From an uncultured bacterium (GTDB lineage Bacteria; Acidobacteriota; Aminicenantia; Aminicenantales; Saccharicenantaceae), in NCBI GenBank assembly GCA_937920515.1, contig CALEUG010000002.1, positions 1 through 49,578 of the forward strand: a stretch of DNA of 49,578 nucleotides. Direction: 5' to 3'. The position numbers and the translations under genes are program-made. Below the pieces are notes generated by a model that made no database searches, had not been told where the DNA came from, and was given only the letters and a program-made list of their open reading frames with translations. Below, piece after piece: positions 5,232 through 34,935 of the stretch. Each line of letters opens with the position of its first letter. The stretch's first letter is position 1.

Positions 5232-5255
5232 ATATATGAACGATAATTCATATAT
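5232..5255. promoter_or_regulatory. Perfect palindrome, copy 1 (operator-like)
   Basis: ATATATGAA, six bases CGATAA, then TTCATATAT form a perfect 9-base inverted repeat. The same arms with the same 6-base spacing recur at 34642-34665. The form resembles operators of dimeric repressors such as the TetR family. No T run follows, so a terminator is unlikely. It lies about 165 bases upstream of the promoter for the YIP1 gene. Confidence 0.5.
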
Positions 5256-5420
5256 TAATTGCTGATTTGCAAGCCTTGAAGCCTGTATCTGATTTTACGA
5301 AATATAACAGGCGGCTGCAGGCTTCGCCCTGCCCGGAAATATCCTGGCCTGGATAACCGGCCTGAAAGTCGGAACCTATTCCCCGGTTTTGTCTGGGGTT
5401 TTACCTTAAAAAAAATTAAT

Positions 5421-5450
5421 TTGACTGTGATTTCTTATTTTTTATATACT
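5421..5450 (+). promoter_or_regulatory. Promoter of the first YIP1 gene
   Basis: TTGACT (5421-5426) and TATACT (5445-5450) are separated by 18 bases in an AT-rich setting. The predicted transcription start near 5457 leaves a 24-base leader containing AAGGAGG. It lies inside an upstream extension of the reading frame, which argues for the ATG at 5481. Confidence 0.7.
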
Positions 5451-5480
5451 CCGTTTATCCGCTTGAAAGAAGGAGGAAAA

Positions 5481-6077
5481 ATGAACCTGGTTCCGAGAGT
5501 TCAGGGTCTTATTCTTAAGCCCGGAGAAGAATGGGACAAAATAAAGGGCGAACCGGCCACCGTGGCCGATATCTTCAAGTCCTACCTAATGATTATGGCG
5601 GCCATCCCGGCCGTGGCCCAGTTCCTCGGTTACTGGTTGATCGGGCTCTCCTTGCCCCTGCGGGGTCCGGTCAGGTTAGGTGTGGGGGCATCGCTGGGCC
5701 GGGCTGTCGTGTCTTACATCCTGAGCCTGGCCGCAGTCTTCATCCTGGCCCTGATCATCAACGCCCTGGCCCCGACTTTTTCATCCAGGCCCGACCAGAT
5801 TCAATCGCTCAAGCTGGCCGCTTACAGCCTGGCTCCGTATTATGTGGCCGGGGTTTTCTATCTGGTTCCGGTGCTGTCCATCCTGACCATTCTGGCCGGT
5901 ATTTACAGCCTGTATGTCCTGTACCTGGGGTTCAAGGCGGGTTTGATGGAAACGCCGCCGGATAAGGTCATGGGCTATTTTGTGGTAACGGTGGTTGTGG
6001 GCATCGTCTTGATGCTGGTGGTCGGCCTGGTGGTCGGGGCGATTTTTTCCTTAAGCACCTTCTACAGCGGCCTGTAA
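5481..6077 (+). CDS. YIP1-family integral membrane protein
   Basis: This 198-residue protein begins with the family pattern RVQGLILKPGEEWDKIKGE. It then shows about five hydrophobic segments (about residues 35-55, 70-92, 115-135, 135-155 and 165-195). YIP1-domain proteins in bacteria are multi-span inner-membrane proteins without a settled role. The start is set by AAGGAGG five bases upstream of ATG. It is transcribed alone after the tRNA pair. Its last 27 bases overlap the end of pyrF on the other strand. A second, longer family member lies at 23621-24355. Confidence 0.88.
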   Translation: MNLVPRVQGLILKPGEEWDKIKGEPATVADIFKSYLMIMAAIPAVAQFLGYWLIGLSLPLRGPVRLGVGASLGRAVVSYILSLAAVFILALIINALAPTFSSRPDQIQSLKLAAYSLAPYYVAGVFYLVPVLSILTILAGIYSLYVLYLGFKAGLMETPPDKVMGYFVVTVVVGIVLMLVVGLVVGAIFSLSTFYSGL

Positions 6078-6791
6078 TTCTTTCAGGACCCGGCTGAAAG
6101 CCTCCCGGGGCACCGGGGCCCGGGTAATCGGCCGTCCGATGACCAGGAAATCGGCCCCCTTTTTTATAGCCTCTTCCGGAGTCATGATTCTCTTCTGGTC
6201 CTGAGCCTCGGCCCAGGCCGGGCGGATACCCGGGGTGATTATCCTGACTCCTGAACCCAGCTCAGCCCTCAGCGGGTCCAGCTCCTGGGGCGAGCAGACA
6301 ATTCCTTCTATCCCTGATTCAACTGCCAGCCTGGCCAGCCGCAGTACCTGGTTCCTGGAACTGTCGCTGAAACCGATTTCTTGCAGGTCGTTGTCTTTCA
6401 AACTGGTCAGGACGGTGACTCCCAGGATCAAGGGCAATGGCTTATTTTCTTTTTCCGCGGTCTCCCGGGCCGCCTCCACCGCCTTTTTCATCATCTCACG
6501 GCCTCCGGCAGCATGCAGGGTCAGCATGGCTACGCTGTGGCGGACCGCTGACTTTACAGCCCCGGCTACCGTGTTGGGAATGTCGTGAAGCTTTAAGTCC
6601 AGGAAGACCTCTTTCCCGAAACTCTTAACCAGGTCAATCATGGCCGGGCCTTCGGCCGTAAACAGTTCCAGCCCGACCTTGAAAATCCGGGCTTCGGGCA
6701 GCGATTCCAGCACCGACCGGGCTTCTTCCCGGTTCTTAACGTCCAGGGCAATTATTATTTTTCTGGCGATTTCTGATTTAGTTTCTCTCAT
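6051..6791 (-). CDS. pyrF: Orotidine 5'-phosphate decarboxylase
   Basis: This 246-residue enzyme makes UMP from OMP, the last step of pyrimidine synthesis. Hallmarks are IIALDVKNREEA at the first strand, DLKLHDIPNTV with the catalytic Lys/Asp set, and VIGRPITRAPVP at the phosphate-binding end. Length is normal for the short bacterial class. It lies downstream of pyrK-pyrD on the same strand after a gap of 274 bases, so it may be cotranscribed or have its own promoter. The 3' end overlaps the YIP1 gene tail to tail. Confidence 0.97.
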   Translation of the reverse strand: MRETKSEIARKIIIALDVKNREEARSVLESLPEARIFKVGLELFTAEGPAMIDLVKSFGKEVFLDLKLHDIPNTVAGAVKSAVRHSVAMLTLHAAGGREMMKKAVEAARETAEKENKPLPLILGVTVLTSLKDNDLQEIGFSDSSRNQVLRLARLAVESGIEGIVCSPQELDPLRAELGSGVRIITPGIRPAWAEAQDQKRIMTPEEAIKKGADFLVIGRPITRAPVPREAFSRVLKELQAAVEGA

Positions 6792-7065
6792 CTCAACACC
6801 TTTCTAAAAATTGATTGGTATTTTATATCTGTTAGCGTCTGATGGCAAATCGTGACCCCCGGGCGGCCGGAAGATGCGGGCAGCGGCACTACCGGGGTGG
6901 TCTGCCCTCCCGGCTGCAGGAAAGGGCTTAAAGTCAGGGCTGGCCAGTATTGTTGGTGTCGGGTAAGTCGTGGAAAGGGGGGAGAAAATACAGGTTTTTC
7001 GCGCCTCATTTTTTTACAGACAGGGCCGACCTGTAAAATTCCGCCCTGACATCATAAAAGCTGGC

Positions 7066-7977
7066 TCAGGCCATAAGGCTTCCAGTTACTTCTCTTATTT
7101 TTTTAAGACCATGAGCTTCTGCCCAGGTTGTCAGTCCCCCGATGATTTTCAGACAGGCATCGGGGTCGACAAAATTGGCCGTGCCCACCTGGACCGCAGC
7201 TGCCCCGGCCATCATGAATTCCAGGGCGTCTTCGGCGCTGAAGATGCCACCCATGCCGATTACCGGCACCTTAACGGACCGGGCTACCTGGAAGACCATC
7301 CTCACTGCGATGGGCTTGATGGCCGGTCCGCTCAGCCCTCCCATAACATTTCCCAGCTTTGGCTTTCTGGTTTTCAGGTCAACGGCCATGGCCAGCAAGG
7401 TGTTGATAAGCGATATGGCCTCGGTTCCGGCTTCTTCGGCCGCCAGGGCCACGGCGGTAATGTCGGTGACGTTGGGCGAGAGCTTGGTGATGAGGGGCAG
7501 GGAAGTTACCCGCTTTACTTTTTTTACCGTGCGATAGGTGGCCTCCGGGCTCTGGGCCGGGCAGCGACCCCCTTCCCGGACGTTAGGGCAGGAAATGTTG
7601 AGTTCCAGGGCCGCTATACCCTGGTGCCGGCCAAGATATTCAGCCACCCGGGCGTATTCGTCTTCTTCTTCGCCGCAGACATTGACGATGACCGCGGTCT
7701 TCAATCCGGCCAGCTCTGGCAGAATTTCACGGCAGAAGGCTTCGACTCCTATACCCTGAAGCCCTATTGAGTTGATTAATCCGCCGGGTGTTTCCACCAG
7801 GCGGGGCGGCCTGTTGCCTTCCCTTGGTTTAAAATACAGCCCTTTGACCACGAAACCGCCCAGGAGATCCAGGTCATAGAACGGCTTGAATTCCAGGCCG
7901 TAGCCGAAAGTCCCGCTGGCGGCTATGACCGGGTTTTTGAGCTTCAGGAAACCCAGGTCGACTGACAGGTCAACCAT
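7066..7977 (-). CDS. pyrD: Dihydroorotate dehydrogenase B, catalytic subunit
   Basis: This 303-residue FMN enzyme oxidises dihydroorotate to orotate. It has the class 1B signature: NPVIAASGTFGYG at the N terminus, the NISCPNVREGG segment, and VPVIGMGGIFSAED near the FMN phosphate site. NCPN/C residues place the active-site Cys in the 1B style. It is paired with the electron-transfer subunit pyrK, whose stop overlaps the pyrD start by 8 bases. The pair therefore should form the NAD-dependent heterotetramer typical of anaerobes and Gram-positive bacteria. Confidence 0.97.
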   Translation of the reverse strand: MVDLSVDLGFLKLKNPVIAASGTFGYGLEFKPFYDLDLLGGFVVKGLYFKPREGNRPPRLVETPGGLINSIGLQGIGVEAFCREILPELAGLKTAVIVNVCGEEEDEYARVAEYLGRHQGIAALELNISCPNVREGGRCPAQSPEATYRTVKKVKRVTSLPLITKLSPNVTDITAVALAAEEAGTEAISLINTLLAMAVDLKTRKPKLGNVMGGLSGPAIKPIAVRMVFQVARSVKVPVIGMGGIFSAEDALEFMMAGAAAVQVGTANFVDPDACLKIIGGLTTWAEAHGLKKIREVTGSLMA

Positions 7978-8770
7978 CGTTGCTCTCCTGCCAGACTATT
8001 TCTTCAAGTGGAAAGACCGGTCCATCCTGGCAGACCTTCAGGTATTTTTCCTGGCCGTTCCTCCGGATTTTCCTGACACATCCCCAGCAGGCGCCGAAAC
8101 CGCAGCCCATGATTGATTCCAGTGAAAACTGGGCCTCCAGGTTTTTCCGGCGGCAGATTTCAGCCAGCTTTTCCATCATCGGGTCCGGTCCGCAGGCATA
8201 GAGATAGGCGGGCTGCCTTTTCTTCAATTCCGCTTCGACCAGCGAGGTGACAAGACCAGGAAAACCGTCGCTGCCGTCATCGGTGGAAACCAGGACTTCA
8301 AAGCCGGTCGTTTGCAGCCTGTTCTTTAGCGGGAGGTCAGTCCGGCTCCGGCCCCCGTAAAAAATAACCGGCCGGGCCCCGCTGGATCGAAGCTTCCTGG
8401 CCAGGTAGTAAAGGGGGGCGATACCCCGGCCACCGCCGACGCAGAAAATCTCCCTGCCGCTTAATTCGGGCTGAAGGCTAAAACCCTTTCCGAGCGGCCC
8501 GAGCAGGTCTATGGATTCTCCAGGCTTTTTCATCGACAGCAACCTGGTGCCCGTCCCGGCTACCTGGAAGAAAATCTGTAATTGGTTCTCTTCGGCATTG
8601 TGCAAACTTATGGGCCGCCGGAGCAGCGGTTGGGTGTTCTCGGAAACCTTTATCATCAAGAACTGCCCGGGCTGGGCCTGACGGGCGATTTCAGGCGAAT
8701 AAAAGGTGAAAAGAAAGTAATCGCCCCAGCTTTCAACCTCAACCAGCCTGGCCTGTCTGTCTATAACCAT
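7970..8770 (-). CDS. pyrK: Dihydroorotate dehydrogenase B, electron transfer subunit
   Basis: This 266-residue protein carries FAD and a [2Fe-2S] cluster and passes electrons from PyrD to NAD+. The FAD domain is N-terminal with the RRPISLHNAEE motif. The nucleotide-binding domain has GGGRGIAPLYYLA. The C-terminal cluster motif is C-G-F-G-A-C-W-G-C with a fourth Cys in KVCQDGPVF. It is the first gene of the pyrK-pyrD pair (8-base overlap). Length and domain order are normal. Confidence 0.96.
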   Translation of the reverse strand: MVIDRQARLVEVESWGDYFLFTFYSPEIARQAQPGQFLMIKVSENTQPLLRRPISLHNAEENQLQIFFQVAGTGTRLLSMKKPGESIDLLGPLGKGFSLQPELSGREIFCVGGGRGIAPLYYLARKLRSSGARPVIFYGGRSRTDLPLKNRLQTTGFEVLVSTDDGSDGFPGLVTSLVEAELKKRQPAYLYACGPDPMMEKLAEICRRKNLEAQFSLESIMGCGFGACWGCVRKIRRNGQEKYLKVCQDGPVFPLEEIVWQESNDG

Positions 8771-8972
8771 TCTTGCCTGGTCCTGGAAAATATTCGCGGT
8801 GCCGGCATTCCTGAATTAAATACCAGAAAAATGGTCTGATAGCAAATTTTCTGCTTTTTAGGACTGGCCGGCGATAACCACCCGGGTGAGGCAAGTTAAT
8901 TTTAGAAAATGAGAGTGGAAAGAATGAAGCCCGGGTGAGCTGTCAGCAAGGGGCATTGCGAAGAATAAAAAG

Positions 8973-9001
8973 TTGTTTTAGCCGGGCCGATTTTTTATAA
9001 T
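8973..9001 (+). promoter_or_regulatory. Promoter of the class I aminotransferase gene
   Basis: TTGTTT (8973-8978) and a perfect TATAAT (8996-9001) are spaced by 17 bases. They lie 34 bases upstream of the ATG at 9036 with AGGAGG between. Confidence 0.7.
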
Positions 9002-9035
9002 TAAAACTAATAATAACTTCCAGGAGGACTCATCC

Positions 9036-10232
9036 ATGTTTATATCCCGCCGGGCTAAAGAAATACAGGCTTCGCCCATCCGCAAGCTTAAACCCTTTGC
9101 CGACCAGGCCAGAAAAAGAGGCATTCACATTTTCCACCTGAACATCGGCGACCCCGACATCCCGACCCCCGAGCCGATAATCAAGGCCTTTCACCAGTAC
9201 AACGGGCCCATCCTGAGTTACGGACCGTCCCAGGGCTTTGAGGAGCTGCGGCAGGCTATAGCCGATTACTTTGGCGGATATGGGATAAAGCTGTCGGCCG
9301 ATAACGTTCTGATAACCATCGGCGGTTCGGAAGCCATCCATTTTTCCTTTTCGGTTGTGGCCGACCCGGGAGACGAGATCATCATCCCCGAACCCTTCTA
9401 CACCAACTACAATGGCTATGCCACTTTTGCCGACGTCAGAATAGTGCCCCTGCCGCTTAAAGTTGAAGATGGTTTCAGGCTGCCCGCTTCCGAGCAGGTC
9501 GAAGCCCTGATTACGCCCCGTACCAGGGCTATTCTCCTGTGTTCGCCCAATAACCCCACCGGCACAGTTTATACCGGGGAAGAGCTCCGGCGGATGGTAG
9601 AACTGGTAAAGAAGTACGACCTGTTCCTGATAGGCGACGAAGTCTATAAAGAATTTGTCTATGACGGGTTGAGCCACAAAAGCATCCTGGAATTCGGAGA
9701 AATTGAGGACCGGGTGATCGTGGTCGATAGCATCTCCAAGCGCTTCAGCTGCTGCGGGGCCCGGATCGGGGCGGTGGTCACCAGGAACCAGGAAATTTAC
9801 CAGGCCATCCTGAAATTTGCCCAGGCCCGCCTCTGTCCGCCCTCGGTTGAACAGTATGCCGCCCTGACCGCCTACCGCATGGGCCTGGACTACTTTGGTC
9901 CTGTTCGGGAGGAATACCAGAGGCGTCGCAACATTCTTTACGATGGCCTGGCTTCCATCCCGGGGGTTTTCCTCAGAAAGCCCCAGGGCGCTTTCTACGT
10001 AATCTGCCGGCTTCCGGTTAAAGACTCCGAGCATTTTGCGGAGTGGATGCTGACCGATTTTTCACTCAATAATAAGACGGTCATGGTGGCTCCGGGGCCG
10101 GGTTTCTACGCCACTCCCGGACGCGGCCTGGACGAGGTGAGAATCGCCTACGTCCTTAAAGAAGCGGACCTGGTGGAGGCCATTGAAATCCTGCGCCAGG
10201 GACTGGAGAAATACCAGAAATTATTTGGCTGA
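9036..10232 (+). CDS. PLP-dependent class I aminotransferase (AspC-like)
   Basis: This 398-residue fold-type I enzyme has HLNIGDPDIPTPEP near the start, YGPSQGFEELRQAIADY in the substrate region, CSPNNPTGTVY, GDEVYKEF, and the PLP lysine in DSISKRFSCCGARIG (about residues 231-245). The final Arg-containing GLDEVRIAYV binds the carboxylate. The family transfers amino groups between amino acids and 2-oxo acids. The exact substrate cannot be read from the sequence. AGGAGG lies eight bases upstream of the start. The rhodanese gene follows after six bases, so the three genes up to 11175 may form one operon. Confidence 0.92.
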   Translation: MFISRRAKEIQASPIRKLKPFADQARKRGIHIFHLNIGDPDIPTPEPIIKAFHQYNGPILSYGPSQGFEELRQAIADYFGGYGIKLSADNVLITIGGSEAIHFSFSVVADPGDEIIIPEPFYTNYNGYATFADVRIVPLPLKVEDGFRLPASEQVEALITPRTRAILLCSPNNPTGTVYTGEELRRMVELVKKYDLFLIGDEVYKEFVYDGLSHKSILEFGEIEDRVIVVDSISKRFSCCGARIGAVVTRNQEIYQAILKFAQARLCPPSVEQYAALTAYRMGLDYFGPVREEYQRRRNILYDGLASIPGVFLRKPQGAFYVICRLPVKDSEHFAEWMLTDFSLNNKTVMVAPGPGFYATPGRGLDEVRIAYVLKEADLVEAIEILRQGLEKYQKLFG

Positions 10233-10238
10233 TTCCGG

Positions 10239-10751
10239 ATGAAACTTCAACAGATTCTCAGGGACAGGGAAACCTGGAAAGGTATATTAATAATTCTTGC
10301 TCTTTCTCTGTTTATCGGGACAGTCAGCAATTCAGGTCTTATAAGGAAATTCCTTCGGGGTGAATACCGACAGGCCTTCTTCTCAAGGGAAGACTATCCC
10401 GGGCTGGTGTTTATAACTCTTCCCGAGATGGAAGAACTCTGGCATAATCAAGCAGCCCTGATTGTGGACAGTCGCTCAGTTCCAGAGTTCAGGTCAGGAC
10501 ACATCCCGGGCTCGATTTCGGTTCCCCTGGAAGAAGTAAAGGGCGGTAATTCCTCACTCCTGGACCGTCTCAAACCTGGCCAACCGCTTATAATCTATTG
10601 CGAGGGCAGGGACTGCCTGACCAGCCTTAACCTGGCCCGACTTCTTCACGAGCGGGGATTCCGCGACCTCAGGGTTTTCAGCGGCGGCTGGGAAGAATGG
10701 GTGGCGGCCGGGCTGCCTGTGGAAAAAGAAGATGACGCTATTCAGGAATAA
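10239..10751 (+). CDS. Membrane-anchored rhodanese-like protein
   Basis: This 170-residue protein has one N-terminal membrane segment (about 14-31) and a rhodanese domain. The domain shows DSRSVPEFRSGHIPGS (77-92) and the active-site loop beginning CEGRDC (Cys121 and Cys126). SGGWEEWVAAGLPVE closes the domain. Rhodanese domains carry persulfide sulfur on the active Cys. The domain should face the periplasm. The gene overlaps the following DoxX/MauE gene by 20 bases. That pairing of a rhodanese with a MauE-type protein is common in bacteria and suggests thiol or sulfur chemistry at the membrane. Confidence 0.88.
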   Translation: MKLQQILRDRETWKGILIILALSLFIGTVSNSGLIRKFLRGEYRQAFFSREDYPGLVFITLPEMEELWHNQAALIVDSRSVPEFRSGHIPGSISVPLEEVKGGNSSLLDRLKPGQPLIIYCEGRDCLTSLNLARLLHERGFRDLRVFSGGWEEWVAAGLPVEKEDDAIQE

Positions 10752-11175
10752 ATATTTTCTCATGCTCCTCCGGCTTATTGTTGGCGGGGTGTTTATCTGG
10801 GCGGCAGTGACCAAGATTGCCGACCCGCTGGCCTTCGCCCAGGATGTCAGGAATTACCGCCTGGTGGGCCAGTCCCTGAGCTTTCTGACGGCCATCGTCC
10901 TGCCCTGGGTGGAGCTTATAGCCGGAGTCTGCCTTATAATCGGCGTCTTCCCCCGCTCCAGCGCCCTGCTCATAAGCGGTCTCCTGGTCTTTTTTATCGT
11001 GCTGGTGGCAATAACCATGGTCAGGGGCATTGACGTGGACTGCGGCTGTTTCGGCACCTTCAGCCGAAAGGCCAATCTCTGGTTGATTCTGGAAGACTCA
11101 ATCTGGCTGGCCATGTCACTTGTTCTGCTTTTTTCTCCGGCCAATGATTTCTGCCTGCTTAAGAAAACCTCTTAG
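10732..11175 (+). CDS. DoxX/MauE-type membrane protein
   Basis: This 147-residue protein has four hydrophobic helices (about 10-30, 48-68, 75-97 and 110-132) typical of the DoxX/MauE group. The first helix ends with FIWAAVTKIADPLAFA, a family hallmark. A CGCF motif lies between helices 3 and 4 (about residue 103) and could be redox active. It is translationally linked to the rhodanese gene by a 20-base overlap. A role in thiol redox transfer with the rhodanese partner is likely, but it is inferred from context. Confidence 0.87.
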   Translation: MTLFRNKYFLMLLRLIVGGVFIWAAVTKIADPLAFAQDVRNYRLVGQSLSFLTAIVLPWVELIAGVCLIIGVFPRSSALLISGLLVFFIVLVAITMVRGIDVDCGCFGTFSRKANLWLILEDSIWLAMSLVLLFSPANDFCLLKKTS

Positions 11176-11213
11176 ATTAATCTGATATTTTACATATCTG
11201 GCAGTCATCGTCC

Positions 11214-11242
11214 TTGAAATTTTTCCTCTGAAAGTGTATATT
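11214..11242 (+). promoter_or_regulatory. Promoter of ppdK
   Basis: TTGAAA (11214-11219) and TATATT (11237-11242) are spaced by 17 bases. The predicted start near 11249 gives a leader of about 32 bases holding the GGAAGGAG site. Confidence 0.65.
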
Positions 11243-11280
11243 TTCTTGAATTTACTAAGCTGTTGGAAGGAGTAAGTATT

Positions 11281-14091: not shown

Positions 14092-14109
14092 CTGAACTGA
14101 CCGCTCCTT

Positions 14110-14146
14110 GGCCCCGGACTACCACCAGTCCGGGGCCTTTTTTTTT
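14110..14146 (+). terminator. Rho-independent terminator of ppdK
   Basis: A perfect 11-base stem (GGCCCCGGACT with AGTCCGGGGCC) closes a 6-base loop and is followed by nine T. It begins 18 bases past the ppdK stop codon. Confidence 0.95.
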
Positions 14147-14252
14147 GCATTCAGCCTGCCTGAGCACAGGCAGTCTTTCGAAGATCGGGTGGAGTGGGCA
14201 GCCTGAATTAAATCCTTTTAAGAGATGCTGTTTTCTGGTATCTTAATTAAAA

Positions 14253-16779: not shown

Positions 16780-16814
16780 CGATAACTCCTTCTTGTTATT
16801 CTTTTTACTGAACG

Positions 16815-16844
16815 ATGATAACACCGGCCGCGGCTTTAATTCAA
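16815..16844 (-). promoter_or_regulatory. Promoter of the M20 peptidase-cutA operon
   Basis: On the minus strand TTGAAT and TATCAT are spaced by 18 bases, placing the transcription start near 16808, about 29 bases before the ATG at 16779. Confidence 0.55.
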
Positions 16845-17010
16845 TAAAAAATTGAAACAGTTATCGCCTGATTTTATTTCCAGCTCCCGGTCTGTACCGG
16901 GCGGAAAATTTTAATGGACATTTCAGCCTTCGTTCCGGAAGCGAAAAAGCGCAATCTCAGTCTGGCCGCTCTTCAGCCACAAGTGTGGTTGATATGAGTG
17001 GATGGATGGC

Positions 17011-23574: not shown

Positions 23575-23620
23575 AGCCTTAATTTATAGAGGCCTGGCCG
23601 GGTTGTCAACCATTGTCGCC

Positions 23621-25065: not shown

Positions 25066-25068
25066 CGC

Positions 25069-26307: not shown

Positions 26308-26340
26308 TTCTGTGTCCTTCAAGGAAGTCATTTTTTCATA

Positions 26341-26371
26341 ATTATACTTCATTTTACGAAGTTTTGCCCAA
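26341..26371 (-). promoter_or_regulatory. Promoter of the adaptor-ATPase-YIP1-...-pgsA operon
   Basis: The -10 box TATAAT (26341-26346) is perfect. A weak -35 box TTGGGC (26366-26371) lies 19 bases upstream. Transcription should begin near 26334, so the longer adaptor start at 26352 would not be transcribed. Confidence 0.55.
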
Positions 26372-26419
26372 AAGGTTTAATTTATTGCCTGGAGCTGGCC
26401 AAGCTGGTAAGATTCTCTC

Positions 26420-27211
26420 ATGGACAACCCGAGAATATTTCTGCCCGTGGCTCGCCGGGCAGCCCTGGAAGCCGGCCGCTACCTGCTCCAGGGATTGAAC
26501 CAGAAAAAAAGGGTGGCCTTCAAAGGACAGGTTGACCTGGTCACGTCCTTCGACCGGAAGTCAGAAGAGATGATATACAGCCGGCTGGGCCAGGCCTTCC
26601 CCGACCATAGTTTCCTGGCCGAGGAAGAAATACACCAGGAACGGGCTTCTGATTACCTCTGGCTGGTTGACCCTCTCGACGGAACCACCAATTATGCCCA
26701 CGGCCTCCCGGTTTTCTGTGTATCAATCGCTCTGGCCTTCAGGAATGAAATCATCCTGGGCCTGGTCTACGACCCCAGCCGGGAAGAACTTTACACGGCG
26801 ACCAGGGGTCAGGGTGCTTATCTTAACGGAAAACCCATCAGGGTTTCGAAGACCAGGAAACTTGGCAGGAGCCTTCTGGCCACGGGCTTCCCTTACGATG
26901 TCAGGACAAGTCAGGATAATAACCTTGACCATTTTGCCAGTTTTGCCGTCAGGGCCCAGGCCATCCGGCGGCTGGGGTCGGCCGCTCTTGACCTCTGCTA
27001 TGTAGCCTGCGGCCGCTTTGACGGCTACTGGGAAAAAAAGCTTAAACCCTGGGACCTGGCCGCCGGAGCCCTGCTGGTTGAAGAGGCCGGGGGCAGGGTC
27101 AGCAATTTAGAGGGTGAAAAATTCAACCTGTCCAGTCCTCATATCGTGGCCAGCAACGGTTACATTCACCGGTCGATGCTGGATATTTTAAGCCCGGGTT
27201 TAGTAAAATAG
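26420..27211 (+). CDS. suhB: Inositol monophosphatase-family protein (SuhB-like)
   Basis: This 263-residue Mg2+/Li+-sensitive phosphatase has EEEIHQ (metal Glu), DPLDGTTNYAHGLPVFCVSIAL with the DPLDGTTN metal loop, and WDLAAGALLVEEAGG with the last metal Asp. SuhB proteins dephosphorylate inositol phosphates and related sugar phosphates; E. coli SuhB also acts in rRNA transcription. ATG 26420 has no strong upstream site. It is followed after 19 bases by the PA-IL-like gene, so the two may be cotranscribed. Confidence 0.95.
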   Translation: MDNPRIFLPVARRAALEAGRYLLQGLNQKKRVAFKGQVDLVTSFDRKSEEMIYSRLGQAFPDHSFLAEEEIHQERASDYLWLVDPLDGTTNYAHGLPVFCVSIALAFRNEIILGLVYDPSREELYTATRGQGAYLNGKPIRVSKTRKLGRSLLATGFPYDVRTSQDNNLDHFASFAVRAQAIRRLGSAALDLCYVACGRFDGYWEKKLKPWDLAAGALLVEEAGGRVSNLEGEKFNLSSPHIVASNGYIHRSMLDILSPGLVK

Positions 27212-27230
27212 TGGCGAGAGAGAAGGGAAG

Positions 27231-27767
27231 ATGAAGCCCGGCAGATTTTCAATATTTATGACCGCCATCCTGGTTTCTTTATCTTTATTATCGGCCCGAG
27301 CCCGGGAAATTAGACCAGCAGCCTGCCAGGAACAGGATGAGAACCTGGTGCTGGTCAAGCATATGGAGGTAAAAGCCGCCCTGGGCTGGGTGGACACCGG
27401 CCTGGATGTTAAAGAAGGCGAAAAATTGGTCTTCCGGGTTTCTGGCTCCATTTCGCTCCAGAAAGGTAATCCCGTTGCCAGCTGCGGTCCGGAAGGACTG
27501 GACCTGCAAACGCCGCAACAACCCCTGCCCGACCGTAACCTGGGAGCGGCCGTGGGCCGGGTGGTCAAGGTTCTGAGCATTAACAGGGATGAAGAGACCG
27601 GAGAGGAAATCAGGGAAGAGGTGAGCACTGTCTTTTATATCGGCTCGGCGGCCGAAGTGGAGATAACCCTGGAAGGGCGACTACATCTCGGGGTAAACGA
27701 CAACGTCTATGCCGATAACGACGGTCAGTTTACGGTGGGCATTTTCAGGAAGAAAAATATAGAATAG
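27231..27767 (+). CDS. Exported PA-IL (LecA)-like jelly-roll protein
   Basis: This 178-residue protein has a signal peptide (hydrophobic residues 7-20, cut near ARA-RE). Its body follows the PA-IL-type pattern: GWVDTGLDVKEGEKLVFRVSG (about 53-73), CGPEGLD, a YIGSAAEVEITLEGRL block, then GVNDNVYADNDGQFTVGIF at the end. In LecA the ND and D residues bind calcium and galactose. Many family members are secreted and uncharacterised. A sugar-binding role outside the cell is therefore plausible but not shown. GAAGGGAAG precedes the start. Confidence 0.72.
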   Translation: MKPGRFSIFMTAILVSLSLLSARAREIRPAACQEQDENLVLVKHMEVKAALGWVDTGLDVKEGEKLVFRVSGSISLQKGNPVASCGPEGLDLQTPQQPLPDRNLGAAVGRVVKVLSINRDEETGEEIREEVSTVFYIGSAAEVEITLEGRLHLGVNDNVYADNDGQFTVGIFRKKNIE

Positions 27768-27787
27768 ACATTCCGCCCTGGTGATTT

Positions 27788-29146
27788 TCAGCCTCCGGGG
27801 TTCGCTTCTTTCTGGCTCAGGAAATATTCCATAAACTGGGTGTTGTAGTTTCCCTTGACAAAGTCGTCGCTGGAAAGAATGTTAAGCAACAGGGGGATGT
27901 TGGTCTTGATACCCACGATGGTGGTGGTTTCCAGAGCCGCCTTCATCTTGGCGATGGCCAGTGGCCTGGTGGGAGCGTAGGCGATAATCTTGGCCAGCAG
28001 GGAGTCGTAGTGGGGCGGTATCTCCCAGCCGGCGTAGGCGGCTGAATCCACCCGGATGCCCTCGCCGCCGGGGAATACCAGGAAGTCTATTTTCCCTGGA
28101 GAGGGGATGAAAGTATTCGGGTCCTCGGCGTTGATGCGGCATTCAATGGCATGGCCGCGCATTTCCAGTTCCATCGGGAAATTGATCTTTTCCCCGGCGG
28201 CCACCCTGATCTGGGCCTTGATCAGGTTTATGCCGTAGACCATCTCGGTGATGGGGTGCTCCACCTGGACCCGGGTGTTGGCTTCCATGAAATAGAAGCG
28301 CTTCCTGTCGTCAACCAGGAATTCAAAAGTACCCAGGCTGCGGTAACCGATTTTTTCGGCCGCATCCCGGGTCTCCTTAATCATCCTGGCCCTGGTGCGC
28401 TCATCTATAAAGGGTGAGGGCGTTTCTTCTATTATTTTCTGGTACTTTCTCTGGACGCTGCATTCTCTCTCGCCAAAAGCGATGACTTTTCCTTTGTGGT
28501 CGCCGATGACCTGGATTTCGATGTGCCTGGCCCCGGTGATGTATTTTTCCAGGTAGAGGGAGGGGTCGCCGAAGGCGGACTTGGCTTCATTCTGGGCCAT
28601 GGGGAATTGTTCTTCCAGGTGAGCGGCGTTACGGCAGATTCTCATGCCCTTGCCACCGCCACCGGCGGCCGCCTTGATTATGACCGGATAGCCGATCTTC
28701 TGGGCAACTTTCTTGGCCTCGGCCACGTCTTCCAGGATGATGTCGCTTCCGGGAATAACCGGCAGGCCGGCTTTCTTCATGGCCTGACGAGCCCGGTTCT
28801 TGTCGCCCATCAGCTTGATGATATCCGGCGGCGGGCCGATGAAAACAAAGCCGGAGTTCTGGCAGATTTCGGCAAACCTGGCGTTTTCAGCCAGGAAACC
28901 ATAGCCAGGATGGATGGCTTCGGCCCCGGTAATCTCGGCCGCGCTCAGTATATTTGGTATGTTGAGGTAACTGTCCGAGGCTTTGGCCGGCCCTATGCAA
29001 ATGCTCTCGTCAGCCAGCATGGCGTGGAGCGAGTTGCGGTCGGCTTCAGAGAAGACGGCCACGGTCTTGATCCCGAGCTCTTTGCAGGACCGGATGATTC
29101 TGAGGGCGATTTCGCCCCGGTTGGCTATCAGAATTTTGGAAAACAT
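27788..29146 (-). CDS. accC: Acetyl-CoA carboxylase, biotin carboxylase subunit
   Basis: This 452-residue ATP-grasp enzyme carboxylates biotin on BCCP with bicarbonate and ATP. It opens KILIANRGEIALRIIRSCKE. The ATP-grasp domain has KAAAGGGGKGMRICRNA and FGERECSVQRKYQKIIEE, followed by EANTRVQVEHPITE. ATG 29146 is the correct start: a 47-codon longer form is antisense to the BCCP biotin region and has no sense. It lies 5 bases after accB, and the two are cotranscribed. AccA/AccD, the transferase subunits, are not in this window. Confidence 0.97.
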   Translation of the reverse strand: MFSKILIANRGEIALRIIRSCKELGIKTVAVFSEADRNSLHAMLADESICIGPAKASDSYLNIPNILSAAEITGAEAIHPGYGFLAENARFAEICQNSGFVFIGPPPDIIKLMGDKNRARQAMKKAGLPVIPGSDIILEDVAEAKKVAQKIGYPVIIKAAAGGGGKGMRICRNAAHLEEQFPMAQNEAKSAFGDPSLYLEKYITGARHIEIQVIGDHKGKVIAFGERECSVQRKYQKIIEETPSPFIDERTRARMIKETRDAAEKIGYRSLGTFEFLVDDRKRFYFMEANTRVQVEHPITEMVYGINLIKAQIRVAAGEKINFPMELEMRGHAIECRINAEDPNTFIPSPGKIDFLVFPGGEGIRVDSAAYAGWEIPPHYDSLLAKIIAYAPTRPLAIAKMKAALETTTIVGIKTNIPLLLNILSSDDFVKGNYNTQFMEYFLSQKEANPGG

Positions 29147-29151
29147 GTTAC

Positions 29152-29679
29152 TCAGGCGCTCACTTTGATGGCAAAAAGTCTCTGCCCGTATTCTACCGGT
29201 TTGCCGTTTTCCACCAGGATGTCCACCACCAGGCCGTTGACGTCGCACTCGATTTCGTTCATCAGCTTCATGGCTTCCACGATGCACAGGGTCTGGCCTT
29301 TCCTGACCGAGTCGCCTATGTCCACGAAGGGCGGCGAGGTGGGAGAAGGCGCCCGGTAAAAGGTTCCGACCATGGGTGAAGTTACGTAGTGTATGTTCTT
29401 GTCTTCGGCCGGGGCCGGGGTGGGAATTTCGCCCTTGGTTGCCATCATCCTGGCCGCAGATTCGGATACGGCCGGGGTGAACACCACCTGGGCCGGGCCT
29501 GCAGCATTGCCCGGGCTGCGACTGAGCCTTATCTTGAAACCTTCCACTTCCAGCTCGAACTGGGTGAGGTTTTTCTCTTCGAGGAGCGCTATCAGCTTGC
29601 GTAGCTCTTCGTAGTCAATTTTCGAGCTGAAGGGGCTTTCCTGGCCTGAAGCGTCAGGCTTACCGTTTTTTTGTGCCAT
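29152..29679 (-). CDS. accB: Biotin carboxyl carrier protein
   Basis: This 175-residue protein carries the biotin of acetyl-CoA carboxylase. The N-terminal helical part ([19 protein letters not shown]) and a linker with Pro and Ala (about 75-95) precede the C-terminal biotinyl domain. The biotin Lys lies in [13 protein letters not shown], the expected MKL/M motif. AGGAAGGTG lies upstream of the ATG. It is the first gene of the accB-accC pair and has a good promoter at 29706-29734. Confidence 0.97.
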
Positions 29680-29705
29680 TATTCACCTTCCTCAAAATTA
29701 GTAAA

Positions 29706-29734
29706 ACTTTACCCAGAACGGGCAGGATTGTCAA
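29706..29734 (-). promoter_or_regulatory. Promoter of accB-accC
   Basis: Minus-strand TTGACA (29729-29734) and TAAAGT (29706-29711) are spaced by 17 bases, giving a transcription start near 29700 and a leader of about 20 bases. Confidence 0.75.
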
Positions 29735-30093
29735 GATGGAAGCGGGGTCCGGACTGATATTATTTTTAATCAATTGGTTAACTTAATGAACCCGCCTTTT
29801 CGACCGGATTCCCGTTTGACTCCCGGGTTGGCAGATGGCCCTCAGGGCGGCTCCAGGCCAGGGTCAGGTCTGGCCCGGGGCGGCGTGCAAATTGGATGGA
29901 GTTGGAAAACGGGTCCCGGGCAGACTTCCGGGTGCCGGGGATTTATAATCATTCCAGTTCCGGATGATAGTCGGCCGGGGTTGCTGCAGCCTGCACCCCG
30001 GCATGAGCCAGCCTGAACAGACCATATCCTGGAGCGCCCTGAATTATCATAATCTTATTTTCTCTTGGTTTGCCCGGAATTCAATCAAGTTAT

Positions 30094-30115
30094 GGAGTCA
30101 ATACATATGTGACAC
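30094..30115 (-). repeat. Dispersed repeat, copy R1 (IS-end-like)
   Basis: The minus strand reads GTGTCACATATGTATTGACT. It matches copies R3 and, more weakly, R2 and R4, in the order GTGT-CA-C-ATAT-G/A-T. It faces away from R2. Confidence 0.35.
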
Positions 30116-30258
30116 TTTTACTCTGGAGTTTTGAGAAAAAAGATTTTTTTTACCGGGGATACGGACTGATCGGGAAATAAGACAGCCATAACCGGTAAAT
30201 CGCATATTCTTTTAGGATAATAGATATCCAGAACTATGGCTTTTACAGAGATCCCCAG

Positions 30259-30290
30259 GTGTTACCCATATATCTGACCCGGCACATCCG
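30259..30290 (+). repeat. Dispersed repeat, copy R2 (IS-end-like)
   Basis: It reads GTGTTACCCATATATCTGAC then CCGGCACATCCG. Aligned to R4 (37401-37431), it is identical across a 12-base core, TCTGACCCGGCA, and agrees at most flanking bases. Confidence 0.5.
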
Positions 30291-30415
30291 GTTAACAGGA
30301 AAATAGTTAATACTCAACCACCACCGCTTATCTCCGGAGGGGATTAGTCCCTTTTCCGGTTTGATTGACCTCGCGGGCAGGCTGGCGTAAGATTTAAGGC
30401 GCTAAGGTGGAATGA

Positions 30416-31735
30416 ATGTTTGAACAGCTTACTGAGAAAATCCAGAAAACTCTCAAGTACATCCGGGGCGAAGGCAAAATTACCGAGAAGAATATAGCCG
30501 AAGCCCTGAAGATGCTGCGCCTGGCCTTTCTCGAGGCCGACGTTAACTATAAGGTCGTTAAGGAGTTTGAAACCCGGGTCAAGGCCAGGGCTCTCAACCA
30601 GGAAGTCATGATGAGCCTGACCCCGGCCCAGCATTTCATCAAGATAGTCCGGGATGAGCTGACCGAAATCCTTGGCCGGGAAGCCAGGCCCCTGGTCTTT
30701 GCCAGCCACCCGCCATCGGTTTTCATGCTGGTCGGGTTGCAGGGAAGCGGCAAGACCACCACCGCCGGCAAGCTGGCCAGGCACCTTAAGAGTCTCGGCC
30801 GGAACCCGCTGCTGGTGTCCTTTGACCTCAAAAGGCTGGCCGCCCAGGACCAGCTGCGGATAATCTCCAGATCACTCAACCTGCCTTTTTATGAGATGAC
30901 GGCCGAGAAGATGAAGAACCCGGCCGAGGCCCTGAAAGAGCTGATGACCTTCACCAGGAATCGCGGTTACGACCCGCTGCTGGTGGACACGGCCGGCCGC
31001 CTGCACATAGACGAAGAGCTGATGGAAGAGCTGAGGCTGGTCCGGGAAATCCTGGAACCCACCGAGGTCATCTATGTCGGCGACGCCATGACCGGCCAGG
31101 ATGCCGTCCGCAGCGCCCGGGGTTTTGAGGAAAAAATAGGCCTGACCTCCATCATCCTGACCAAGCTGGACGGCGACGCCCGGGGCGGAGCCGCCCTGTC
31201 CATTGTCTACGTAACCAATAAGCCCATAAAGTTCATCGGCGTGGGCGAAAAGTTCGACAAGCTGGAGGTTTTCCACCCCGACCGGATGGCTTCGAGGATT
31301 CTGGGTATGGGGGATATCCTCAGCCTGATCGAAAAAGCGGAGCAGGCGGCCGACCTGAAGGAGGCCGAGGAAATCGCCAGGAAAATAAAGAAGCAGCAGT
31401 TTACCCTGGAGGATTTCCGCAAGCAGCTTCAGCAGCTAAAAAAGATGGGCAGCCTGTCCGGGCTGCTGGACCTTCTGCCCAGAGCCGGGCCCTTCAAGAA
31501 AATGGGCAACCTGGACCTTGATGACAAAAAGCTCATTTATTTCGAAGCCATCATCAACTCCATGACCCCGGCCGAGAGGGAAAACCCGCGGATTATCGAC
31601 GGCCGGAGGCGGAGCAGGATAGCCCGGGGCAGCGGCCGCCCGGTCCAGGAAGTAAACCAGCTTCTCAAGCAGTTCTTCGAAATGGAAAAGCTGCTGAAAA
31701 AGAGCGATTTCCAGAAGCTGATGAAGAGCATCTGA
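30416..31735 (+). CDS. ffh: Signal recognition particle protein Ffh
   Basis: This 439-residue SRP GTPase targets nascent membrane proteins to the translocon. The N domain (about 1-85) is helical. The G domain has [31 protein letters not shown] and [14 protein letters not shown]. The C-terminal M domain (about 325-439) carries the helices that bind SRP RNA ([20 protein letters not shown]). The M domain is poor in Met compared with the usual family. AAGGTGG lies before the ATG, and an ATG four bases earlier is out of frame. It stands alone. Confidence 0.97.
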
Positions 31736-31916
31736 GATTTTCTCCTTCAGCCATAGCTTAAGCCCGGGTCGCCGTAAATGGTTGTCATTTGACCTTGTCA
31801 GACGTGGGGAAGGGTGTTTTACTAAGCCAGATTTAGCCGAATTCTTCCGGACTTATTCCAGAAAGTTGTCTTCTGCCAAAAAGTCCTGCCGGTCGTGCCA
31901 TTTCGTGGTAATGATA

Positions 31917-31950
31917 TGCCATGAATGGCAACAAATTATCCTGGATAATT
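31917..31950. promoter_or_regulatory. Two adjacent inverted repeats after ffh
   Basis: TGCCAT-GA-ATGGCA (31917-31930) is followed by AATTATCC-T-GGATAATT (31934-31950), both perfect. They lie between the convergent ffh and DUF1624 genes. No T run follows, so a simple terminator is unlikely; a protein-binding site or bidirectional end is possible. Confidence 0.3.
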
Positions 31951-31968
31951 ATTACTGGACTTTCTGCT

Positions 31969-32697
31969 TTATATTTTCAGGTAACCGAGCAGATACAGGA
32001 CGCCCAGGATTAGCGGCTGGTGCAGGAGGTAAATCCAGAGGGAGTGCCGACCGCACCAGTTAAAGATGTTCGGAGGCAGTGGCCGGGCCAGAAGACTTTT
32101 TCGGGATGAATAAAGCCAGCGGCCAAGAGCCGCGCCGATTAAAAAAACGCCCAGCCACGGGATAAGCGGGAAATAATCGAAAGAGGCAAAGTCCGGGCGG
32201 TGGAAGCCGAGAGGCAGCAGCCAGTTGGAGTTTATGGCCAGGGCCTTATGGGCTGCCGGCAGCAGAAAACTCAGGCCAGTTATAACTGTTCCGGAGACCA
32301 GGCAGGCAGCGGCCTTAGATTTCTTGAAGAGCAGACCGTAAATCAGCGCTGAAACACCCAGGCAGTGGATGATGCCGAACAGGATGACCGAGGCCGGGTC
32401 AAAAACATAGCTGGCCGCGGTTATCAGCAGGGCCACGGCCAGGTATTTCAGGCTTCGCCGTAAATTGTTCTGGCTGAAGTTGGAGCTGATCCCGGACAGG
32501 ATAACGAACAGGCCGGCAAAAAAATGCTGGGCCACCAGCCAGGCCGGCGTGGTCAGGTCGGTGGAAAAGCCCAGGAATTTTTTCAGGCCGACAAAATCGC
32601 CCAGGTCGTAGAGCAGGTGGTAGCCGACCATCAGGATGATGGCCAGGCCGCGCAGAAAATCTATTTCCCAGATGCGGGCTGGAGTTTCCCTGGTCAC
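31969..32697 (-). CDS. DUF1624/HGSNAT-type membrane acyltransferase-like protein
   Basis: This 242-residue protein opens with WEIDFLRGLAIILMVGYHLLYDL, the hallmark of the heparan-alpha-glucosaminide acetyltransferase catalytic-like group, with the conserved His at about residue 29. It has about seven membrane segments and ends SLWIYLLHQPLILGVLYLLGYL. Members are thought to move acyl groups across or within the membrane, and the substrate is unknown. It begins with GTG 32697, and its promoter puts transcription at about the same base, so the mRNA may be leaderless. Confidence 0.82.
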   Translation of the reverse strand: MTRETPARIWEIDFLRGLAIILMVGYHLLYDLGDFVGLKKFLGFSTDLTTPAWLVAQHFFAGLFVILSGISSNFSQNNLRRSLKYLAVALLITAASYVFDPASVILFGIIHCLGVSALIYGLLFKKSKAAACLVSGTVITGLSFLLPAAHKALAINSNWLLPLGFHRPDFASFDYFPLIPWLGVFLIGAALGRWLYSSRKSLLARPLPPNIFNWCGRHSLWIYLLHQPLILGVLYLLGYLKI

Positions 32698-32704
32698 GAC
32701 CGTG

Positions 32705-32734
32705 AGTATATTATGGCGACTTTATCTCAGTCAA
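32705..32734 (-). promoter_or_regulatory. Promoter of the DUF1624 gene
   Basis: Minus-strand TTGACT (32729-32734) and TATACT (32705-32710) are spaced by 18 bases. The start of transcription is expected within a few bases of the GTG at 32697. Confidence 0.55.
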
Positions 32735-33098
32735 GGTGAGAAACGGCGGCCTGGCTGGGGTTCAGGTTTTCGGAGTGGTGAGCAATACCATCTGGCAATA
32801 ACGGGAGTTGAGGGCCCGGATTGAGTATGTGTTTTTTTCTGGCGGGTGATAATCAAAGTCATTTAATTCTGGTCAGGGAACGATCGTCGGGCCCGGTTTA
32901 TGACCGGGTGCGACCGGGCTTTTGACAGTCGTCTGTCTGATGGGATAAAGTCAGATAATAGAAGCGACAATGTCATGAACCACCTGCCTTTCAAGAAATT
33001 ACAAGAGAAGAGGAATGGACAAGCACGTTCTCCAGGAACGGGAAAATAAAGCTCGATGAGCGAAAGACTGCGAAATAAAACTGTAAACAGGAGGCAAC
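32735..33098. other. Non-coding region upstream of the serine hydrolase gene
   Basis: No gene is seen. A short inverted GCCCGGTTTATGACCGGG motif occurs near 32890-32907, just before the promoter at 32922-32951. Confidence 0.45.
32922..32951 (+). promoter_or_regulatory. Possible promoter of the serine hydrolase gene
   Basis: TTGACA (32922-32927) and TAAAGT (32946-32951) are spaced by 18 bases. The leader to the ATG at 33099 would be about 140 bases, which is long, so this is tentative. Confidence 0.4.
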
Positions 33099-34496
33099 AT
33101 GAACTTGAGATTACCATTCTTTTTTCTCAGAGAAGCAACCGGGAAAGAAAGGCCTGCCGGCAGAAAAAGAAAAGTCCCGGGTCAGGTTCCGGGAGTTAAG
33201 TTCCGGGTTTTTACCCGCTTTCCCGGTCTTTCTTTGCTGGCTCTGGCTTTCAGCCTCTCAGCCTGGTCAGCCAGCCTGCCAGCCGCCCGACCAAGCGAGG
33301 TCGGGCTGTCAGCCAGCCGGCTGGAACGGCTGGGACAGGTGCTTCAGGATTATTGCGACCAGAAAGGGGCGCCGGGCATGGTGGTTCTCGTTGCCCGGAA
33401 CGGGCGCGTTGTCTATCACCGGGCTTTTGGAAAATTCAGGCTCGACAGGCAGGACCCGATGCCCCTGAACGCCATTTTCCGCATAGCTTCCCAGTCCAAG
33501 GCGGTGACTTCGGTGGCGGTCATGATGTTGATGGAGGAAGGAAAGCTGCTTCTGGATGACCCGGTTTCTAAGTACATTCCTGAATTCAAAGAGACCTTTG
33601 TGGCTGTCAGGGCCGAAAATAAGGAGGCCAGGGGCTACAGCCTGGTGCCGGCCAGGCGACAGATTACCATCCGCGACCTGCTGACCCACACCGCCGGCAT
33701 CTCTTACGGCGACGGCCCGGCCAGAGAAGAATACCTTAAAGCCGGAATTCACGGCTGGTTTTTGAGCGATAAAGATATGACCATCGGCGAGCTGGTCAGG
33801 AAACTGGCCAGACTGCCGTTTGATGCCCAGCCGGGCGAGCAATTTATATATGGCTACAACACCGACATTCTGGGTTACCTGGTGGAAGTGGTTTCCGGGA
33901 TGACCCTAACCGAGTTCGTGGAAAAGCGGATAGCGGGGCCGCTGGGAATGAAGGATACCCATTTCTTCCTGCCGGAGAGCAAGGTTTCCAGGTTTACCCC
34001 GTCCTACGGCTCAGATGAAAACGGGCAGCTCAGGATGACCGAAGACCCGGCCAAAAGCCCTTACGTTTATGGACCGGGGAAGTGTTACTCGGGCGGGGCC
34101 GGACTGGTCTCAACGGCCGAGGATTACGCGCGGTTTCTGCTCATGCTCCAGAATGGGGGCGAGCTGGGCGGGTCTCGGCTTCTGAGTCCGAAGTCAGTTG
34201 AGTTGATGACTGCCGACCAGGCCGGGCAGCTTTATTCGGGCGGAAAGACCGGCTTTGGCCTCGGTTTCTGGGTGACAAAGAGCCTGGGAGTTTCAGGTCT
34301 CCCGGGAAGTGTGGGCTCTTTCGGCTGGGGCGGGGCCTATTTCACCACCTACTGGGTTGACCCGGCAGAAAAACTGGTGGCGGTGTTTATGACCCAGGTC
34401 TTGCCGGTGCCGGCCGGTCTTGCCGACCTGCAGAACAAGTTCCGGACCCTGGTTTACCAGGCCATAGAGAGGTCTTATTCCCAGAAAGGCAATTGA
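33099..34496 (+). CDS. Class C beta-lactamase-like serine hydrolase
   Basis: This 465-residue protein belongs to the beta-lactamase/D-aminopeptidase (S12) group. The catalytic Ser-Lys pair is in IASQSKAVTSV (S-x-x-K), the second motif is Y-G-Y-N-T-D-I (about residue 253), and the third is GWGGAYFTTYW instead of the usual K-T-G or H-x-G. A basic N-terminal tail of about 40 residues precedes a hydrophobic segment (about 46-66) that is a signal peptide or anchor. AGGAGG is five bases before the ATG. The substrate is unknown; esterases and peptidases of this group use small esters or D-peptides. Confidence 0.92.
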   Translation: MNLRLPFFFLREATGKERPAGRKRKVPGQVPGVKFRVFTRFPGLSLLALAFSLSAWSASLPAARPSEVGLSASRLERLGQVLQDYCDQKGAPGMVVLVARNGRVVYHRAFGKFRLDRQDPMPLNAIFRIASQSKAVTSVAVMMLMEEGKLLLDDPVSKYIPEFKETFVAVRAENKEARGYSLVPARRQITIRDLLTHTAGISYGDGPAREEYLKAGIHGWFLSDKDMTIGELVRKLARLPFDAQPGEQFIYGYNTDILGYLVEVVSGMTLTEFVEKRIAGPLGMKDTHFFLPESKVSRFTPSYGSDENGQLRMTEDPAKSPYVYGPGKCYSGGAGLVSTAEDYARFLLMLQNGGELGGSRLLSPKSVELMTADQAGQLYSGGKTGFGLGFWVTKSLGVSGLPGSVGSFGWGGAYFTTYWVDPAEKLVAVFMTQVLPVPAGLADLQNKFRTLVYQAIERSYSQKGN

Positions 34497-34935
34497 ATCC
34501 GGGGCAGGGCTGAAACGACCGGCTGTTAAAATTTAATTGAAAAGGACAGCAGCCAGCAGACGGAGAGACTGCTGAGAGAGAAAAATTGTACCCGGGCTGA
34601 ATAAGCAAGCTGAATTAACAATATGGTAAAGGTGGCTGATGATATATGAATGAATGTTCATATATATCGAAATTTTCTCTGCCCGTGATGCCCGATCCCG
34701 TTAAATCAAAGACCGGCAAATGAAATCTGCCCCTGGCTTCGGGAAGCAGGCTTTAACTGTCGGAAAGAATAAGCTAAACTTATTGGCTCCAGAAGGGGCC
34801 AGGAGCCCGGGAGCGGTGTGGTCCGCCGGTACTCTGTGATGGAGGCCGATGGCTGCCGGAAAATCCGGCCCGGGCCGCCTGTCGGTTTCGGGTTGTTCCG
34901 GGAGATTTTTGATAATTACTACCCGGGAGGAGAAA
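34497..34935. other. Intergenic region with palindrome and weak promoter
   Basis: No gene is seen before the class V aminotransferase start at 34936. It holds the palindrome at 34642-34665. A weak promoter-like pair, TTAACT (34753-34758) and TAAACT (34775-34780), is spaced by 16 bases. GGGAGG precedes the start codon. Confidence 0.5.
34642..34665. promoter_or_regulatory. Perfect palindrome, copy 2 (operator-like)
   Basis: ATATATGAA, six bases TGAATG, then TTCATATAT. The arms and the 6-base spacing are identical to the copy at 5232-5255; only the central bases differ. The central TGAATGAATGTTCA resembles sites of TetR-family dimers. It lies about 110 bases upstream of the possible promoter of the class V aminotransferase gene. 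Confidence 0.5.

Follow-up and report, generated by a model that had tools for sequence, protein, structure and literature searches.

What kind of element is a perfect palindrome that recurs, with equal spacing, upstream of two unrelated genes of the same bacterium? The question arises in a 49,578-nucleotide stretch of an uncultured member of Candidatus Saccharicenans (GenBank assembly GCA_937920515.1, contig CALEUG010000002.1, positions 1–49,578; hereafter, the window), for which an earlier reading of the sequence (hereafter, the original prediction) had reported ATATATGAA-N6-TTCATATAT at 5232–5255 and 34642–34665. Both copies were recovered with 0 mismatches each, and, as described, their arms and spacer length are identical and the spacer bases differ (CGATAA at site 1, TGAATG at site 2). 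Chance recurrence had been judged improbable, in agreement with dinucleotide shuffles, from which 0.01 matches were expected and two matches were reached in 0 of 100. Overall, the evidence moderately favors a reading in which these palindromes would be operators of an ArsR/SmtB-family protein that represses ars genes and has an off-promoter structural or boundary role elsewhere in the chromosome.

Based on a whole-genome search with mismatches, as the original prediction had proposed, the window's genome (G000; 2.56 Mb, 47 contigs; G-numbers denote compared genomes and L-numbers loci) contains 45 matches with ≤3 mismatches (19 perfect, 10 with one, 11 with two, and 5 with three), and the reversed pattern, used as a control at the same threshold, has 0. 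Two of these matches, at the ends of contigs C29 and C39 (L049 and L054), have flanks that are the same in reverse complement and thus represent one site on overlapping contig ends, leaving 44 distinct sites; the overlap falls between hycI and the gene of the NiFe-hydrogenase large subunit. Two freer bases form the center of the logo (sites with ≤2 mismatches), and R-AYATATGAA-T-R lies to either side, an extended 12-2-12 layout as in SmtB/ArsR operators. The two outcomes that the original prediction had listed against itself, copies within a larger repeated element and random copies inside genes, did not materialize. Little sequence is shared beyond 1–2 bases per flank, and the palindrome is therefore not part of a larger repeat; unshared flanks and differing spacers also speak against a mobile element. 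Genic copies were counted among strong sites, defined as AYATATGAA-N6-TTCATATRT, in four species (G000: 27, G009: 24, G014: 40, G011: 37; n = 128; five two-mismatch places of G009, G014, and G011, none with the strong pattern, were left out), of which three lie inside called genes, compared to 84% genic DNA in the background. The palindrome very probably is a protein–DNA site. Core sites of Xer/tyrosine recombinases were considered for the 6-bp spacer and dropped without a dedicated test. Among the 128 strong sites, counted on either strand, the spacer TAACCA appears 11 times and CAACCA 8 times; 18 of these 19 sites belong to G011 or G014, and G000 spacers are more A/T-rich.

The original prediction had expected a TetR-type regulator encoded outside the window. 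The location was borne out and the family was not: the candidate is a 138-aa open reading frame (ORF; G000:C30:14188–14601) whose start lies 17 bases from the end of a perfect site (C30:14619–14642). Its product is a member of the ArsR/SmtB transcription factors, with ArsR-type helix-turn-helix matches above the curated cut-offs of Pfam (PF01022, 46 bits vs. 22) and NCBIfam (NF033788, 81.8 vs. 55), and its best solved relative is SmtB (1r1t, E = 1.2e-10). The motif is likewise of the ArsR/SmtB type. Operators of SmtB/ArsR proteins are 12-2-12 repeats, one published example of which carries TGAA in the same register (accessible part of PMC8790569); compared with that repeat, the logo has the same 12-2-12 inverted layout with TGAA-N6-TTCA.

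The exact core ATATGAA-N6-TTCATAT was scanned in 40 genomes, 19 of the genus and 21 outside it. Thirteen of the 19 genus genomes contain 9–52 exact sites and six contain none; outside the genus, eight of 21 contain one exact site and 13 contain none; the reversed control gave 0 in all 40. An ortholog of the ArsR protein (E = 1.6e-35 or better) is present in 13/13 genus genomes with sites, and no match was found at 1e-8 in the six site-free genus genomes (Fisher's test, ~4e-5 by our own arithmetic, ancestry ignored). This co-occurrence (13/13 vs. 0/6) supports the predicted binding of the sites by ArsR. Weaker ArsR-family relatives are present in just six of the 13 site-bearing genomes, so that none of them can account for all site sets. 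A site precedes the ortholog's start as an exact copy in 10 of the 13 genomes and with one mismatch in G012 and G013; the G006 sequence is incomplete. Next to arsR, both G000 and G023 have a radical-SAM gene, whose best match (TIGR04317) stays below the cut-off; this shared neighbor supports the orthology. A search for decayed remnants in the six site-free genomes returned 7 matches with ≤3 mismatches vs. 4 for the reversed control, none of them convincing.

The same pairing extends beyond the genus, where six of the seven single sites retrieved (of eight) lie just upstream of arsR or of a radical-SAM/arsR pair. An exact scan of an 84,980-genome collection yielded at least 116 loci; among the matches listed, 80 carry titles, including 13 Candidatus Saccharicenans and 7 Aminicenantes. 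For the 96 listed loci without an Aminicenantes or Saccharicenans title (60 otherwise titled and 36 title-less, which may include members of the genus), an ArsR-family ORF occurs ≤500 bp from the site in 56 cases, with the site on its upstream side in 54, and farther than 500 bp in six. We regard the 138-aa ArsR as very probably the protein that would bind these sites.

At ars genes, the sites overlap promoters. The left arm of the site supplies TATGAA as the −10 box at arsR (G000, G011, G014), at acr3 (G000), and at the arsP-like/acr3 operon (G011, G014), with a TTGACA- or TTGACC-like −35 box upstream; the three promoters that were spelled out have a spacing of 17 bp. In G000 and G003, acr3 scores above the TIGR00832 cut-off; acr3 of G014 and the arsP-like gene were identified by eye. 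A site upstream of acr3 also exists in G003 and in G013, where acr3 is a partial ORF below the cut-off. When a −35 match of ≥5/6 at 16–18 bp was demanded, 8 of the 128 strong sites qualified vs. 3.0 expected; six of them are at arsR, acr3, or an ars operon, and the other two are L017, which precedes an isomerase gene, and the convergent L255. The ars-promoter sites are very likely repressor operators, and a dimer placed over the −10 box would give ordinary repression of the ars genes and autorepression of arsR. In G003, 3 of 12 exact sites and one one-mismatch site fall within ~10 kb around arsR and acr3 (G003:C27:157085–167403), a tighter clustering that is perhaps an earlier state.

Most other sites are placed differently. 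The surroundings of the two window copies are as follows.

4970–5045, forward strand: tRNA-Cys(GCA), left neighbor of site 1
5231–5256, no strand: site 1, 12-2-12 palindrome around ATATATGAA-CGATAA-TTCATATAT, exact match
5421–5450, forward strand: promoter-like TTGACT-N18-TATACT before the YIP1 gene, found by eye and unscored
5481–6077, forward strand: YIP1-domain protein gene, right neighbor of site 1 (PF04893, 73.4 bits vs. cut-off 28.6)
33099–34496, forward strand: gene of the Pfam Beta-lactamase family (PF00144), left neighbor of site 2; our own gene caller places its start at 33234
34641–34666, no strand: site 2, 12-2-12 palindrome around ATATATGAA-TGAATG-TTCATATAT, exact match
34936–36117, forward strand: class V aminotransferase gene, right neighbor of site 2 (PF00266)

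Both copies are intergenic, as had been stated, ~225 bp before the YIP1-domain gene and ~270 bp before the class V aminotransferase gene, and the promoter-like sequence is ~165 bp downstream of site 1 and hence does not overlap it. The description of the palindrome as lying ahead of gene starts is thus true of the window copies but not of the set, because 7 of the 27 strong G000 hits are between convergent genes. Over the four species, strong sites are distributed among tandem (75), convergent (31), and divergent (16) gaps, contig edges (3), and called genes (3). In the background (400 kb of contig C10 of G009, sampled at even steps, 84% genic), intergenic DNA comprises 29.9 kb tandem, 21.2 kb divergent, and 8.2 kb convergent sequence. 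The site classes differ from this background (p = 9e-8 per site; 0.0066 per orthologous group, 47 groups), convergent gaps being enriched and divergent gaps depleted (convergent vs. divergent, p = 0.003). Within tandem gaps no position preference was found, the distribution being compatible with a uniform one (30 groups, Kolmogorov–Smirnov p = 0.34), and stop codons form the closest gene boundary for 29 of 47 groups vs. 38% of random intergenic positions (p = 0.0014). An operator is expected to overlap or adjoin the promoter of the gene it regulates; no −35 match of ≥5/6 exists at 120 of the 128 strong sites, and 31 are convergent.

Neighboring genes share no common functional theme, neither among the 50 proteins, ArsR itself included, that flank 26 of the 45 G000 matches nor among 10 further proteins. 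They include peptidases, CTP synthase, UvrC, FeoB, hydrogenase, molybdenum-cofactor and sugar genes, and aminotransferases; the arsenic genes among the scanned G000 neighbors are arsR and acr3. Nitroreductase-family genes adjoin two different sites (L051:3655–4353 and L052:3024–3767), one of them SagB-type (NCBIfam) and beside arsR. The unknown regulon of the original prediction finds partial support in promoter-type operators at arsR, acr3, and an ars operon, most sites lying off such promoters and the scanned neighbors having no function in common. A broad conventional regulon, in which all sites would repress or activate their neighbors, some distantly or via unannotated small RNAs or promoters, is one of the two main rivals. 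Not only do both window sites precede genes, but a cluster in tandem gaps is found 12–36 bp from start codons, a distance that is kept at L-fucose-isomerase-like, moaA, and hycI genes, and ArsR proteins with broad effects have been published (accessible parts of PMC7965956 and PMC12821715). The depletion of divergent and enrichment of convergent gaps, tandem positions compatible with uniformity, the lack of a shared function among the 50 scanned proteins, and the fact that just 2 of 128 strong sites are non-ars sites with a −35 match of ≥5/6 all speak against such a regulon, which we consider unlikely. To judge from their sequence context, most of the non-ars sites probably act off promoters.

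The sites are also retained in place. With both flanking genes matched, 21 of the 27 strong G000 hits share a site in the same gap (≤2 mismatches) with at least one of G009, G011, and G014, and 12 have one in all three species; among the convergent G000 sites, 6 of 7 are common to other species. With one flanking gene matched, 24 of 27 are shared, or 23 of 26 if the site doubled at contig ends is counted once. The flanking sequences, aligned with gaps, are 67–68% identical in the three pairs with G000, an identity at which all 16 core positions would be preserved in ~0.2% of cases; the 100% core identity is a product of site selection and was not counted as evidence. The gap of site 1 has a site in G014, and none was found there in G009 or G011, and the gap of site 2 holds a site in all three species, which is strong in G011 and G014 and weaker in G009.

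The second main rival is a repressor sponge, in which extra operators would titrate the repressor away, making arsenic induction sharper or later, irrespective of their position. It would suit sites that are operator-grade and mostly off-promoter, the intergenic placement would merely avoid gene damage, and the turnover of sites in G003, G012, and G013 (see below) is in line with it. However, single sites are kept in the same gaps across species despite 67–68% flank identity, for which a titration pool has no need, and we hold a sponge to be rather improbable. Hairpins in RNA or bidirectional terminators at the ends of genes, for which the protein would be irrelevant, could draw on the folding of the window palindromes as RNA (−5.5 and −6.9 kcal/mol) and on the excess of stop codons as nearest boundary, but the stems are weak and A/U-rich and the sites are missing exactly where ArsR is missing; in tandem sites, stem-breaking C-A occurs 9 times vs. 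17 for wobble T-G, which is not decisive. Hairpins appear very improbable. A TetR-family operator could draw on TGAA-N6-TTCA as a generic dimer-type palindrome. We hold it to be extremely improbable, since no TetR family was found among the 50 scanned neighbors of 26 of the 45 G000 matches (E up to 1e-5), where a TetR-type gene beside a copy had been anticipated, two TetR-looking genes (by eye) ~2 kb from G003 sites L410 and L411 are not adjacent, and ArsR fits the co-occurrence, neighborhood, and operator layout.

A further aspect of placement concerns the centromere. Sites <300 bp apart occur solely as arrays at a single orthologous location, between the bactofilin and CTP synthase genes, with a spacing of 44–45 bp and two (G009) or three copies (G011, G014); G000, in which the bactofilin was assigned by Pfam, has a single site there. 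The sequence TGTTCCACGTGGAACA, which we take to be parS-like, is found once (one mismatch allowed) in each of five genomes tested and lies ~2.1 kb from the array or site in G000, G009, and G014. For example, the order on contig C11 of G009 (L418:6933–13187) is mnmG, parS at the start of parA, parB, bactofilin, site array, and CTP synthase. The chance that some site would be this near parS in one genome is ~0.04–0.07 by our own arithmetic, and that the array group would be that site is rarer. The parS sequence is also present in both site-free genomes tested, so the sites are not required for it. In general, parS, matS, and Noc sites are sparse near-perfect palindromes that organize chromosomes, largely independently of promoters, with few copies per genome. 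The Saccharicenans sites resemble them in being near-perfect, few per genome, and largely promoter-independent; unlike those sites, which are bound by unrelated proteins, they exist alongside a separate parS and a ParB-family protein. Confinement of the sites to the origin or terminus was rejected, since they are present on both C10 and C11 of G009 without a clear domain. Their spacing in G009 is uneven, with one gap of 416 kb; dnaA is on C11, and the GC skew of C10 (20 sampled stretches) turns near 1.03–1.08 Mb, the putative terminus.

In the reading that we prefer, the palindromes would be operators of a dimeric winged-helix ArsR/SmtB protein encoded elsewhere in the genome, and the same ArsR may occupy ~10–50 further high-grade intergenic sites per Candidatus Saccharicenans genome. 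Dimers bound off promoters could serve as chromosome-structure or boundary points, by bridging or as roadblocks at gene ends, and might be linked to the parS centromere, where the tandem arrays sit. That the sites serve structure or boundaries and do not just titrate the repressor is a tentative preference that falls slightly short of an even call. Several observations weigh against this reading. The arsR site of G009 remained below 5/6 in the −35 test, no ArsR ORF was found in the examined stretch at 34 of the 96 listed non-Aminicenantes loci (9 of these near the stretch end), and the proximity to parS was noticed after the fact. In a tree built from SRP54 alone (with two partial rows), five of the six site-free genomes form one clade and the sixth (G005) is unresolved within the genus, and the co-occurrence of ArsR and sites therefore does not amount to 19 independent points or six independent losses. 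Gene calls came from our own hexamer-based caller, which is cruder than standard ones, and a single relative supplied the background. Some tandem sites, 12–36 bp before start codons, may be ordinary operators, and 3 of the 27 strong G000 hits are partnerless even with one matching flank. Of 15 loci in G003, G012, and G013 (8 of them with poor gene calls), just 2 have a flanking gene in common with the site groups of the other species, which means that the site set turns over with time. By annotation, the G003 site L412 (transporter/ROK kinase) resembles the L044 group.

Compared to known systems, the sites combine familiar and unfamiliar features. Like the operators of SmtB, ZiaR, and AzuR, as far as the accessible part of PMC8790569 describes them, they are 12-2-12 inverted repeats with TGAA/TTCA in the same register, include an autoregulatory copy at the regulator gene, and overlap promoters at ars genes. 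In contrast, those systems have a single repeat or a pair at or close to the regulated start site, whereas 9–52 exact core copies per genome are found here, most of them off such promoters. The Agrobacterium ArsR arsenic stimulon (PMC7965956, accessible part) likewise involves an ArsR with genome-wide reach; that reach is transcriptional, through motifs of differing degeneracy upstream of repressed genes, whereas the Saccharicenans sites are near-invariant palindromes that often lie between convergent genes. In the literature covered, which leaves subscription journals mostly outside, we found nothing on this motif set or a Saccharicenans ArsR, and no dispersed, off-promoter set of ArsR operators.

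The regulator itself differs among the genomes. In the alignment (G006 is too short), the G000 ArsR reads ELCVR and eight relatives read ELCVG, whereas LCVC is kept in G003, G012, G013, and all six aligned outgroup proteins. Classical arsenic-sensing ArsR proteins of the alpha-3 type have an alpha-3 motif with two close cysteines, LCVC; lacking this pair, the G000 ArsR is not filed among them. Its other cysteines could serve in sensing. Genomes that retain the pair have 12, 9, and 21 exact sites (G003, G012, and G013; 16, 17, and 26 with one mismatch allowed, counted in these three genomes only), and those without it have 21–52, so the ranges touch. This association between cysteine-pair loss and site count represents one or few events on the tree and does not prove causation. 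In the likely recognition helix, the residue that follows HQL varies (Q, R, or K). A basic C-terminal tail was dropped as a genus trait, since it also occurs in some outgroup proteins (net charge of the last 40 residues: +6 to +13 in the genus, 0 to +10 in the outgroup).

The sequence comparisons suggest that a local arsenic-type switch gained a second, chromosome-wide job. In its strongest form, which we hold to be doubtful, the ars repressor would have been taken over as a chromosome organizer, its operator multiplied ~10- to 50-fold into promoter-free gaps, an array placed at the parAB–parS–bactofilin centromere, and the cysteine pair lost in the lineages with most sites. The genomes form a natural series that runs from one site through about a dozen to fifty, and in which the regulator, like the sensor cysteine pair, is present in some members and absent from others; along it, one can trace how the operator of a local repressor spread across a chromosome. 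How a local metal-type repressor turns into a global DNA-binding protein thereby becomes testable, and the convergent gaps supply conserved candidate binding sites away from promoters. Elsewhere in the window, the ORF at 3938–4771 has a FlgT C-terminal-like match just below the Pfam cut-off (26.5 vs. 27).

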